64,000 bases of DNA from Pseudomonadota bacterium (GTDB lineage: Bacteria; Pseudomonadota; Gammaproteobacteria; Steroidobacterales; Woeseiaceae): the NCBI GenBank assembly GCA_022563255.1, contig JADFNS010000008.1, positions 20,994 through 84,993 of the forward strand, in the 5' to 3' direction. Below are positions 53,993 through 61,576 of the stretch, piece by piece; position 1 is the first letter of the stretch, and the number at the start of each line of letters is the position of its first letter. Both the position numbers and the translations under genes were made by a program. The notes beneath the pieces were generated by a model. It had not been told where the DNA came from, did not search any database, and saw nothing but the letters and a program-made list of their open reading frames with translations.

Positions 53993-56593
<2,601 letters not shown>

Positions 56594-56596
56594 AGC

Positions 56597-59392
56597 TTAC
56601 TTGCGCAACACATCTGACTTCAGTTCGGCCAATGCATTCCGCCAGCGATCTACAGAAAGCCGGTAGTATTCTTCCCAGTCTTCACTTCCGGGAATTCCCG
56701 CCACGGTCACGGTCAGCGTCGTGACGCCGTCTTTTTCGCGGATGACGTGCCCTATGGTGATTGGGCCCGTGGGCAAGGCTTCTTCCTGCTCGGCTGGCGC
56801 TATGACCATGCGCATACGGCGTTGCGGCATGAATATATCCAGCCGGCCACTCATCGAATAACCGTCGCGCAAATCCATTTCGAAAGGTCCGCCAATGTAA
56901 GGGGCGAAGGACCCGTCCCGAGCGAGCCAGCGCTTCAATATCTCGATATCCGTAATCGCCGCCCAGATCTCGGACCTGTCGCATGACGTATCGAGCTGCT
57001 CTACATGGCTGCGGGTTATGTCCTCCACGGGTACCGCCGGTTCAGTCTCCGGGGCCGGCTGCACGGGTTTTGGCGCCGGTTTTTGCTGTTCCGGATAAGA
57101 AACTATATGCAGATCGCGTTGCGGGAACGGGATCGTGATACCGGCTTTGCGGAATTCTTTGTCAATTTCGAAGTTCAAGTCGCTTGTTACCGAGAATCTG
57201 CGTTCGATACGTTGGATACGCACGCGCAACTCAAAGTCGAGTGAACTGTCGCCGAAACGCATGAACAAAGCGCTCGGCGCCGGTGCACGTCCATCTGTGA
57301 TGACTTCGGGATGCTCCCGACCGACGTTCTCAAGAATATCGCGGACTTTCTCGACATCTGAACCGTAGGCGACGCCAATCCGCAATTGCAGGCGGCCGTG
57401 CGTATCGCGGAGCACCCAGTTCGTTACTTGTCCCGACACCAGTTCGGAATTCGGTACCAATACGTTCTGGTTGTCGAGAGTCTCGATCTCCGTCGCGCGA
57501 AGGCGGATGCTGCGCACGAAGCCCTCCACCTTGCCGACTGTAACGAAGTCCCCCGCACGAATCGGGCGCTCAAACAGCAGGATCAGGCCGGACACGAAGT
57601 TGTTGGCGATTTCCTGCATGCCAAATCCGAGGCCCAATGCCAGGGCGCCGGAGACAATGGCAAGGCCAGTCAGGTCGACGCTCGCAGCCTTCAGTGATAT
57701 CAGTATCGCCACAATGAATGCGACGTATCCGAACAGAGTCAAAATCGCGTCCCGGGCGCCTCGCTCGATAACAATGCGTTGCAACCACCGGCGGTCTACC
57801 CAGCGCTTGATCCATCCAATCATGACCACCAATACTACGAACAGGAGAACACCACCAACGACGTCCTTTGGCACCAGGGAGAAGCTGCCGAATTCCCAGC
57901 GCTCGACGATCGACAGCCGGAGCTTGCCAAGCGTGGAGCCAGTGTTGTCCCAGACATAAATAAGGTACACGATGGCACTGATCCAAAGCACGAGGTCGGC
58001 GACCAGCTGCATGAAACCGATGCCGGTTCCCGAGCCCTTGTCGCTGATGCCGAGAGTCGTTCGAACTTGCGTCGCTGTCGGCGTTTTTTGCTCGAGCAGG
58101 TAATTGAAACCGACGTAGAACAGCCACAGGAATATCCAGAGCACGAACAGGGCCAGTCCGGTACTCGCGATACCCTCGACCAGATAGCCCGAGAGGTTTT
58201 GATAGCCCATGAACAACGCGAAAATCGCAAAGACGGTTATTGCGGCGGCAGCGAACCGCAGAGTCCTGTAGCGCTGTTGCAGGCCCGGAATGCGACCGAG
58301 ATAGGTCAGAACTACCAGCAGGGCCACTGCAACGATGAATATCATCGATGCGCGACCGGCCACATGCGCCTGGGTTGCACGAACAGCCAGCCATTCGCCG
58401 CCCAGGAATACATAGCTTAGAGCGATTGCGCCGGCTAAGAACCGCAGTCGCACACGCAATGGCCGGACATGGTCCGGAATCAGACCCTTCACATCGGCAG
58501 CGGGTGATAGCGGACCGGTCGCCCAATTGACGACGACACAAGAAAGTCCAACGGCGAAAATCGCGATGGCAACGCGAACAACCAGCATATCGCTGGAGGC
58601 ATTGGGTATGGCGATTGACAGGATCAGAAACAGGGCAGCGCCTTCCAGCCACAGGGGCGAAAATTCCGCCAGCGGTTTCGGCAACAGGTACTTCATCTTG
58701 TATGGCGCTTCGTCACCGCCCGCAGACGCGTACCAGATCAAAAATCTCTTGCGGATGAAGAGTCCGGTAAACGCTGCGATGGATCCTGCGATGATCAGCA
58801 ACCAGAGCAACCTGATCGGTGTAAGACCGTCAACAAGTTGCAAATCGAAATTTTCGCGAAATTTCGTTGGCCAGTCCGCGATTCGTCCGGGGAGACCTTT
58901 CGCCAGAGCGATGACGGAGTCAGTGCGGCTGGACAGAAACTGCTGGGACAACTCGTTTTGCCGCGTCGATATTTTTGACGCCATTCCCCGCGCCTGGTCC
59001 ACGAGGCCGTCGCATCTTGCCTGCCGGGCGATCGCCTCATCCAGCAAATTACGGATACTCTGGCGCTGCGCGAGGGATTCTGTACTTGCATCTGCGGGAT
59101 CGAGGTCCCTGAGGGGCTCGAATCGCTCCTCCAGCCGGATGCGTGCGGTGCCGTTCACGTCCGCGCATGCGATTGCCGCGAGCTCTATTGTGTTGGCTCT
59201 GCTGCGTGCGTCGTTTAGCGCCTCTGCATCAATGTCATCGTTCGCCAGGAGCGATGTCATGTTCTGCAGGTCATCCCCCGCTTCAATGTCATTAAAAGCA
59301 TTTTCATCCTGCGCCAACGCAGGAAATGCAAGCAATAGCAACAGCAGGGTGGTCGTTACACCCGTCAGGGTCTTTGTCTTGCGGGCGTTCAG
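56597..59392 (-). CDS. Large MscS/KefA-type mechanosensitive channel with C-terminal SRPBCC/AHSA1-like domain
   Basis: Signal peptide, multiple TMs, MscS core GLAIVSGALALGLGFGMQEIANNFVSGLILLFERPIRAGDFVTVGKVEGFVRSIRLRATEIETLDNQNVLVPNSELVSGQVTNW; Pro-rich linker; AHSA1-like tail. Start uncertain: CTG 59392 or TTG 59341. Confidence 0.85.
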   Translation of the reverse strand: MNARKTKTLTGVTTTLLLLLLAFPALAQDENAFNDIEAGDDLQNMTSLLANDDIDAEALNDARSRANTIELAAIACADVNGTARIRLEERFEPLRDLDPADASTESLAQRQSIRNLLDEAIARQARCDGLVDQARGMASKISTRQNELSQQFLSSRTDSVIALAKGLPGRIADWPTKFRENFDLQLVDGLTPIRLLWLLIIAGSIAAFTGLFIRKRFLIWYASAGGDEAPYKMKYLLPKPLAEFSPLWLEGAALFLILSIAIPNASSDMLVVRVAIAIFAVGLSCVVVNWATGPLSPAADVKGLIPDHVRPLRVRLRFLAGAIALSYVFLGGEWLAVRATQAHVAGRASMIFIVAVALLVVLTYLGRIPGLQQRYRTLRFAAAAITVFAIFALFMGYQNLSGYLVEGIASTGLALFVLWIFLWLFYVGFNYLLEQKTPTATQVRTTLGISDKGSGTGIGFMQLVADLVLWISAIVYLIYVWDNTGSTLGKLRLSIVERWEFGSFSLVPKDVVGGVLLFVVLVVMIGWIKRWVDRRWLQRIVIERGARDAILTLFGYVAFIVAILISLKAASVDLTGLAIVSGALALGLGFGMQEIANNFVSGLILLFERPIRAGDFVTVGKVEGFVRSIRLRATEIETLDNQNVLVPNSELVSGQVTNWVLRDTHGRLQLRIGVAYGSDVEKVRDILENVGREHPEVITDGRAPAPSALFMRFGDSSLDFELRVRIQRIERRFSVTSDLNFEIDKEFRKAGITIPFPQRDLHIVSYPEQQKPAPKPVQPAPETEPAVPVEDITRSHVEQLDTSCDRSEIWAAITDIEILKRWLARDGSFAPYIGGPFEMDLRDGYSMSGRLDIFMPQRRMRMVIAPAEQEEALPTGPITIGHVIREKDGVTTLTVTVAGIPGSEDWEEYYRLSVDRWRNALAELKSDVLRK

Positions 59393-60084
59393 TTGCGACT
59401 CATCAGTAGCCGCAAGATGTACCAGAACATCATCGCAATGGACGCAAACAAGGCCATTGAAGCCGCAACATACTTGTCCTGCGGGTAGTGATGCATGATG
59501 TTCGATGTGTCATAGAGGATCGCAACGCCGGCGAATCCAATCATGCCAACAGAGAACCAGGTGCCAAGATTCCACCCGAACAGGAATGAGGCGCCGATAA
59601 GCCCCATGACAATGAAGAAGCCCCAGACCAGGACACTGCGCAGGAAGGAAAAGTCCTTGCGCGTAATCATAACTGTCGCTATCAGGGCGACACAGCCGAA
59701 GACCGTCATTCCAGCAGCGCTCTCGATCATGCTGCCGCTGGTATCCATCGTCAGCGCCATGGCCAGCATCGGCACAAACATCAATGCCCAGACAACGACG
59801 AAACCGGCAAAGGCCGCATATTGCGCCGTTTTCGATTGCAGGCGATGGGCGAAATGACTGGCAGCCCAACTCAATGCGATAAAAGCGATCAGCACGGTAC
59901 CGGGGCTGTTGATCATCGGCTGCGCGATGGCCCAGGCAACTCCGGATTTGAACAAGTAAGTTTCAATCGCGACGAGCGACAAAATAGCTCCAACGACATG
60001 CGCATAGCACTTCCAGATAAACTCGGACCGGTCTGAGACCGCAAGGCTTGAAACTGGCGCCATTGAGTTCATGTTGTCTTGCAT
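59389..60084 (-). CDS. Bax inhibitor-1/YccA family membrane protein
   Basis: Seven hydrophobic segments; GMTVFGCVALIATVMITRKDFSFL, VGMIGFAGVAILYDTSNIMHHY typical of BI-1/YccA. Confidence 0.92.
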   Translation of the reverse strand: MQDNMNSMAPVSSLAVSDRSEFIWKCYAHVVGAILSLVAIETYLFKSGVAWAIAQPMINSPGTVLIAFIALSWAASHFAHRLQSKTAQYAAFAGFVVVWALMFVPMLAMALTMDTSGSMIESAAGMTVFGCVALIATVMITRKDFSFLRSVLVWGFFIVMGLIGASFLFGWNLGTWFSVGMIGFAGVAILYDTSNIMHHYPQDKYVAASMALFASIAMMFWYILRLLMSRN

Positions 60085-60135
60085 CTGTACGACTCCCACA
60101 AATTTAAATTGAGTAAATTCTACCACCAAACAGGC

Positions 60136-60325: not shown

Positions 60326-61576
60326 ATGGCCGAAAAGCTTTCTGCTACGTTCGTGAAAAAGACGAAGCGACCAGGCAAACACGGAGACGGCCATAATCTA
60401 TACCTGCAGGTTTACGAATCCGCTCGCAAAGACGGCTCAGTCGTCATCACGAAGTCTTGGCTATTCCGATACTCCAGATTTGGAAAGGATACATGGCTCG
60501 GGCTTGGCCCATTTCCAGACGTTTCTCTGTCCGAAGCCCGCGATCTGGCGACCGCTGAACGAAAGAAAAGGCGACAAGGCATCGATCCATTGACAGACAA
60601 GCAGACTCGTCGCCGTGCGATGCGCCTCGCACATGACAACATGATGACTTTCACCGAGTGCGCAAGAAAATACGTTGACTCACAAGAAGCTGGCTGGAGC
60701 AATCCAAAACATATCGCACAATGGCGAAGTACCTTGAACAACATCGCCGGACCCGTTTTCGGTCACCTCGCGGTCGATCAAATTGACACATCGTTGGTTC
60801 TGCGTTGCCTCGAGCCAATATGGATAACGAAAACTGAAACAGCCAATCGCCTGCGCGGTCGGATCGAAGCCGTATTGGACTGGGCCACGGTCCGTGGGTA
60901 TCGAAAGGGTGACAATCCGGCTCGCTGGCGCGGACACCTGGATAAATTGCTACCCAAACCGAGCAAGGTCACGAAGGTTGAGCACCACCCGGCACTGCCC
61001 TATCAAGAGATCGGTACCTTCATGAAGAAGCTGCGTGCGGCTGACGGTGTTGCTGTGCGTGCTCTCGAGGTAACAATACTTACAGCCACGCGGACCAACG
61101 AGGCTATACAAGCGCAATGGACTGAGATTGACCTTGATTCCGGATTGTGGGTTATTCCCGCAGGGCGCATGAAAGCGAACCGCGAACATCGTGTGCCGTT
61201 ATCTCAAGCGGTCGTACGAACTCTCAATTCTTTAGCAGGTCACGACAAGACATACGTATTTCCCGGGCACAAGCGTGATACGCATTTAAGCAACGCCGCG
61301 ATGCTCGCCGTATTGAAGCGAATGAATCGGAGCGACATCACAGTGCATGGGTTTCGATCGACGTTTCGGGATTGGGCTGCAGAGCATACGAACTATCCTC
61401 GTGAAGTTTGCGAGTCGGCGTTAGCGCATACTCTGCGCGATAAAACCGAAGCGGCCTATCGTCGCGGTGATTTGTACGATAAGCGTCTGCGGTTAATGAA
61501 CGACTGGGCGAAGTACTGTGCGAGGGAATCGAGTAAGGCGAGCGTTACGCCAATGAGGGGCCGTCGTCGTGGCTAA
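60326..61576 (+). CDS. Tyrosine recombinase/integrase (P4-type, DUF4102 N-terminus)
   Basis: KLSATFVKKTKRPGKHGDGHNLYLQV; WLGLGPFPDVSLSEARDLA; catalytic TATRTNEAIQ..., HGFRSTFRDWAAE. Confidence 0.95.
   Translation: MAEKLSATFVKKTKRPGKHGDGHNLYLQVYESARKDGSVVITKSWLFRYSRFGKDTWLGLGPFPDVSLSEARDLATAERKKRRQGIDPLTDKQTRRRAMRLAHDNMMTFTECARKYVDSQEAGWSNPKHIAQWRSTLNNIAGPVFGHLAVDQIDTSLVLRCLEPIWITKTETANRLRGRIEAVLDWATVRGYRKGDNPARWRGHLDKLLPKPSKVTKVEHHPALPYQEIGTFMKKLRAADGVAVRALEVTILTATRTNEAIQAQWTEIDLDSGLWVIPAGRMKANREHRVPLSQAVVRTLNSLAGHDKTYVFPGHKRDTHLSNAAMLAVLKRMNRSDITVHGFRSTFRDWAAEHTNYPREVCESALAHTLRDKTEAAYRRGDLYDKRLRLMNDWAKYCARESSKASVTPMRGRRRG

Follow-up and report, generated by a model that had tools for sequence, protein, structure and literature searches.

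The locus lies in a 64,000-nucleotide stretch of DNA from a member of the Woeseiaceae (hereafter the window, 64 kb). Its central feature is an open reading frame on the reverse strand (59341..56597), which is 914 amino acids long when counted from a TTG codon, and in which hmmscan with Pfam found, in a single open frame, the domains MS_channel_2nd, MS_channel_3rd and AHSA1 in this order. The original prediction, made from the sequence, described an MscS-type channel continued by a proline-rich linker and a C-terminal tail. The frame reads exactly as quoted there. The convergent neighbour on the forward strand is serS (55313..56593), which served as syntenic anchor because it adjoins the channel gene in nearly all sufficiently long loci, including that of a tail-less orthologue (L094, see below). 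Upstream of the channel gene, on the same strand, lies a gene for a Bax1-I protein of the TMBIM/BI-1 type (59389..60129; PF01027, 1.1e-21). It is found directly upstream in most Woeseiaceae loci and was not found at this place in genus g10 (L019, L020, L022, L023) or in L025. The Bax1-I gene is probably an operon partner of the channel gene, and a functional link to ion leak is possible. A tyrosine integrase gene (Arm-DNA-bind_3, Phage_int_M, Phage_integrase) was observed just upstream of the Bax1-I gene, at 60326-61576, and a relative of this integrase sits near the same place in locus L035. ARAGORN detected no tRNA genes in the 64-kb window.

Translation probably does not begin at the TTG codon at 59341. 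A scan of the sequence farther upstream, up to a stop codon, revealed no in-frame ATG, GTG or TTG. Translation from a non-canonical CTG at 59392 would yield a complete signal peptide (MNARKTKTLTGVTTTLLLLLLAFPALAQ, 59309..59392, reverse strand, probable), which the first in-frame ATG/GTG/TTG does not. The CTG start is favoured because a start at the TTG would leave the signal peptide without its charged n-region. The CTG overlaps the TGA stop codon of the Bax1-I gene by four bases (CTGA, window positions 59389-59392).

The signal peptide is followed by a helical periplasmic domain (58841..59305, reverse strand), in which two cysteines, C47 and C98 in the numbering of alignment A2, are invariant in the family. 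The helices of this domain were modelled by AlphaFold with a pLDDT of about 75-91 in the full-length model, which was otherwise too poor (pLDDT 67) to show contacts between the tail and the cage and was used for secondary structure alone. Hydropathy and the helix list of this low-confidence model concur in about 11 transmembrane (TM) helices (57605..58843, reverse strand), as in MscK, the last of which is the MscS pore helix (ALALGLGFGMQEIANNFVSGLILLFERP); its glycines are conserved across the family in the alignment of relatives. The beta domain (PF00924, MS_channel_2nd; 57413..57610, reverse strand; residues 578-643, E 7.3e-23, 80.9 bits against a cut-off of 20.2) and the C-terminal cage domain (PF21082, MS_channel_3rd; 57131..57385, reverse strand; residues 653-737, E 3.7e-19, 69.4 bits against a cut-off of 21) follow, so that the sequence features of the MscS superfamily, pore helix, beta domain and cage, are present. 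The top PDB sequence match was E. coli MscK (7uw5, residues 480-748, 2e-53). MscK was also the top NCBIfam match (NF008438), confined to the channel core (residues 493-753); with 244.7 bits against a cut-off of 991, the protein does not qualify as an MscK equivalog. In MscK itself a periplasmic domain at the N-terminus is followed by 11 TM helices, and the C-terminal domain is cytoplasmic (PMC9653487). As in MscK, an odd count of TM helices behind the signal peptide would put the tail on the cytosolic side, beyond the cage, which agrees with the cytosolic location that had been proposed for it.

The cage is connected to the tail by a proline-rich linker of 25 residues (57023..57097, reverse strand), which in relatives is 23-32 residues long and poorly conserved. 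The tail itself consists of 141 residues (56600..57022, reverse strand). It matched the AHSA1 family PF08327 over residues 788-908 (56618-56980) with 37 bits (4.6e-9) when the whole protein was searched and with 41.7 bits (1.6e-10) when the tail was searched alone, the cut-off being 22.1 bits in both cases; positions 3-121 of the 125 in the profile were covered, and the tails of two relatives scored 44 and 54.8 bits. A weak PDB sequence match to an AHSA1-like protein extended over residues 787-889 and had a value of 0.001 with the tail alone. AlphaFold2, given 23 aligned tails as input, produced a tail model with a mean pLDDT of 92.5 and a pTM of 0.87, in which a strand, two short helices, more strands and a long C-terminal helix succeed one another as in the helix-grip fold. 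The first Foldseek match of this model in the PDB was the AHA1-like protein 3q63 (TM 0.82), with 2m89 (Aha1, Colwellia) and 8z3h (an Aha1 structure) lower in the list; AHA1-family proteins in general gave TM values of about 0.8. Foldseek also matched the tail to ligand-binding PYR/PYL abscisic-acid receptors and cytokinin-binding proteins. Pfam, AlphaFold2 and Foldseek together rule out a chance similarity to AHSA1. The helix-grip fold, for which structure prediction had been suggested as the check, was thus borne out. The designation AHSA1/START-like was loose in its second half: the START domain (PF01852) is absent from the Pfam matches of the protein, and the tail belongs specifically to AHSA1, a sister family within the Bet v 1/SRPBCC superfamily. 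The superfamily has been described as a scaffold that accommodates large hydrophobic ligands, and fusions of its domains to regulatory ones are known (PMC2577659).

Near-complete matches to the protein were found in 22 of 107 Woeseiaceae genomes, the window's own included; others were cut at contig ends, and within the window's own genus the channel gene is missing from many genomes. The tail was present in all full-length Woeseiaceae relatives aligned (21/21), at 45-71% identity. Since the same architecture recurs in these 21 other orthologues, the fusion is neither a product of chance nor of assembly, as the original prediction had required to be verified in relatives. Mean pairwise identity was highest in the core and cage (80%), followed by the TM region (55%), the tail (49%) and the periplasmic domain (41%). 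Identities of the tail and of the channel were strongly correlated (Mantel r 0.90, with none of 2000 permutations as high), and this correlated divergence, together with the conservation, indicates that the tail has been maintained and inherited with the channel.

The ancestry of the tail could be approached from two sides. In genome G513, which belongs to another family of the same order, a channel gene adjoins serS at the corresponding position, and its product ends at the cage (L094); Pfam detected no AHSA1 domain in it. Class-level relatives read to their ends finish with the cage or shortly behind it, and no tail match was found in them. When 398 genomes of the phylum were searched with a full-length profile, the window's own protein was the only one among the best matches listed that matched through the tail, and it was also the sole Woeseiaceae member there. 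In the sister family f2, on the other hand, a standalone protein, mostly about 165-210 amino acids long as an open frame, matched the whole tail (1e-14 to 6e-24), and the channel was not found in the f2 genomes tested. An orthologue without the tail at the same locus, together with a homologue of the tail that stands alone, shows that the tail is an added module, a lineage-specific gain. In the tail tree the sister-family homologues grouped cleanly together (100/99), and one common origin for the fused tails was not rejected (p-AU 0.11); the rooting is unsure because AHSA1 proteins from the class level, which have long branches, join the tree among the fused sequences. The simplest history would be one fusion of a standalone gene behind the channel gene in the Woeseiaceae.

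The standalone and fused forms have R4, W32, GG44-45, R68, R71, G109, P111, W116, W127 and L134 in common, and the GIP..W and W..aL signature of the f2 homologues (L084-L093) recurs in the fused tail. Only in the fused form do T3, H6, L83, G86, P87, T89 and E114 vary little or not at all, and an invariant loop, PL..GPIT, is specific to fused tails. The standalone AHSA1-like proteins as a whole (PF08327; for example PDB 2lak, 3q63 and 2m89; L084-L093) share the fold of the tail without having a channel attached.

Both halves of the protein belong to known families; it is their combination that appears to be new. No description of an MscS fusion to an AHSA1, SRPBCC or START domain was found in the open-licence literature, and we know of no described channel that carries the helix-grip fold as a sensor. 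Independent MscS fusions to quite different AHSA1 domains may exist elsewhere, in unsampled genomes. The closest functional analogues are the bCNG channels, which also combine an MscS core with a C-terminal cytosolic domain of the ligand-binding type. In these channels the MscS core is followed by a cyclic-nucleotide-binding domain in the cytosol; a 2010 work by Caldwell, cited in PMC4560390, reportedly describes them. Their sensor has the cNMP-binding fold, whereas the window protein has an AHSA1 helix-grip domain in that place; in Pfam the tail matched PF08327 alone and no cyclic-nucleotide-binding domain, so the protein does not belong to the bCNG class. E. coli MscK (KefA) shares the pore, beta and cage domains with the window protein, and probably also the layout of a periplasmic N-domain and about 11 TM helices. 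MscK is about 1120 amino acids long, its periplasmic domain is larger, and its chain extends only a little beyond the cage, where the window protein adds the AHSA1 domain. Gating of MscK needs both force and ligand (PMC9653487), a precedent for dual gating. MscCG of Corynebacterium glutamicum is, like the window protein, MscS-like and extended at its C-terminus in a lineage-specific way, and this extension affects gating (PMC6110860); it contains a fourth TM helix, whereas the extension described here is a globular AHSA1 domain. In PYR/PYL receptors and cytokinin-binding proteins the helix-grip fold acts as a hormone sensor (TM about 0.6-0.76 to the tail); these are soluble plant proteins with about 10-15% identity to the tail, and the resemblance is one of fold alone.

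Taking these observations together, we propose that the protein is a tension-gated heptamer in which seven cytosolic AHSA1 domains bias gating upon binding a hydrophobic ligand, a reading to which we assign a probability of about 0.5. According to this model, a standalone AHSA1-type helix-grip protein would have been fused, in the ancestor of the present tail-bearing Woeseiaceae, behind the cage of an MscK-like, presumably heptameric mechanosensitive channel with signal peptide, periplasmic domain, about 11 TM helices, pore helix and cage, the connection being made by the flexible proline-rich linker. Seven copies of the domain would be suspended from the base of the cage on the cytosolic side, and the cavity of each helix grip would take up a hydrophobic or amphipathic ligand from the cytosol. 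Binding would change the AHSA1 loops, the fusion-specific invariant PL..GPIT loop being the candidate; once altered, the loops would touch the cage or the cage portals differently and thereby shift the tension threshold, the adaptation or the flux of the channel. It counts against the model that the linker is flexible and varies in length, which disfavours rigid mechanical coupling. The better conservation of the tail than of the periplasmic domain (49% vs 41%) was counted in favour of a ligand-modulated channel. In 8 of the 10 f2 loci (L084-L093, at about positions 900-2500) the standalone AHSA1-like gene and one for a MAPEG protein form a conserved neighbouring pair, which mildly favours a lipophilic ligand.

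The main rival to a ligand-biased, force-gated channel is that the tail serves protein docking or assembly, either recruiting a cytosolic partner to the base of the channel or packing against its neighbours and so stabilising the heptamer. Eukaryotic Aha1 does act through protein-protein contact, by binding Hsp90 (PMC2577659), a flexible linker would suit such a role, and the PL..GPIT loop and E114 are candidates for a fusion-specific invariant surface. Nevertheless, we consider docking rather unlikely: the f2 homologue occurs without the channel and the domain therefore does not need it as a partner, and no conserved gene for a cytosolic partner lies beside the fusion, the upstream Bax1-I being a membrane protein. 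A narrower proposal, suggested by the Pfam name of PF08327, is that the tail couples HtpG/Hsp90 to the channel as a bacterial co-chaperone of the Aha1 type. It is highly improbable, as Pfam gives only three families for the protein and the N-terminal Hsp90-binding domain of Aha1 (PF09229) was not found among them, and as many prokaryotes have PF08327 in settings unrelated to this one, ArsR regulators among them (PMC2577659).

The tail might also act by catalysis or sequestration, in the manner of a polyketide cyclase or a detoxifying protein; tethered to the membrane near an export pore, it would process or capture a metabolite beside the exit. The MAPEG family, whose gene adjoins that of the f2 homologue, includes glutathione-dependent enzymes, and this neighbourhood would fit such a function. 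Among the members of the superfamily there are likewise enzymes, as well as CalC, which binds a drug (PMC2577659). However, no catalytic motif was recognised in the tail, and its invariant residues (R4, W32, GG, D62, R71, GIP, W127) look largely structural, which makes this explanation improbable. That the fusion arose in assembly or annotation could be imagined for a draft genome of 84% completeness, but independently assembled relatives, down to 45% identity, show it in a continuous frame and the G+C content is the same in the tail (0.57) and in the channel (0.57); the likelihood of an artefact is negligible.

MscS-type channels are a model for force gating, and few of them have a recognisable cytosolic sensor. 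If the proposed ligand-biased gating is true, the Woeseiaceae would possess a bacterial channel responding to ligand plus force through a helix-grip sensor. Somewhat tentatively, it may be regarded as a new dual-gated class of the MscS superfamily, in which seven helix-grip domains would respond to a lipid or hydrophobic metabolite in the cytosol and thereby determine the pore's tension threshold. The tail-less syntenic orthologue and the standalone domain provide natural controls, and the fusion, kept through deep divergence in a marine family, offers a ready system for the integration of a chemical signal with membrane tension.
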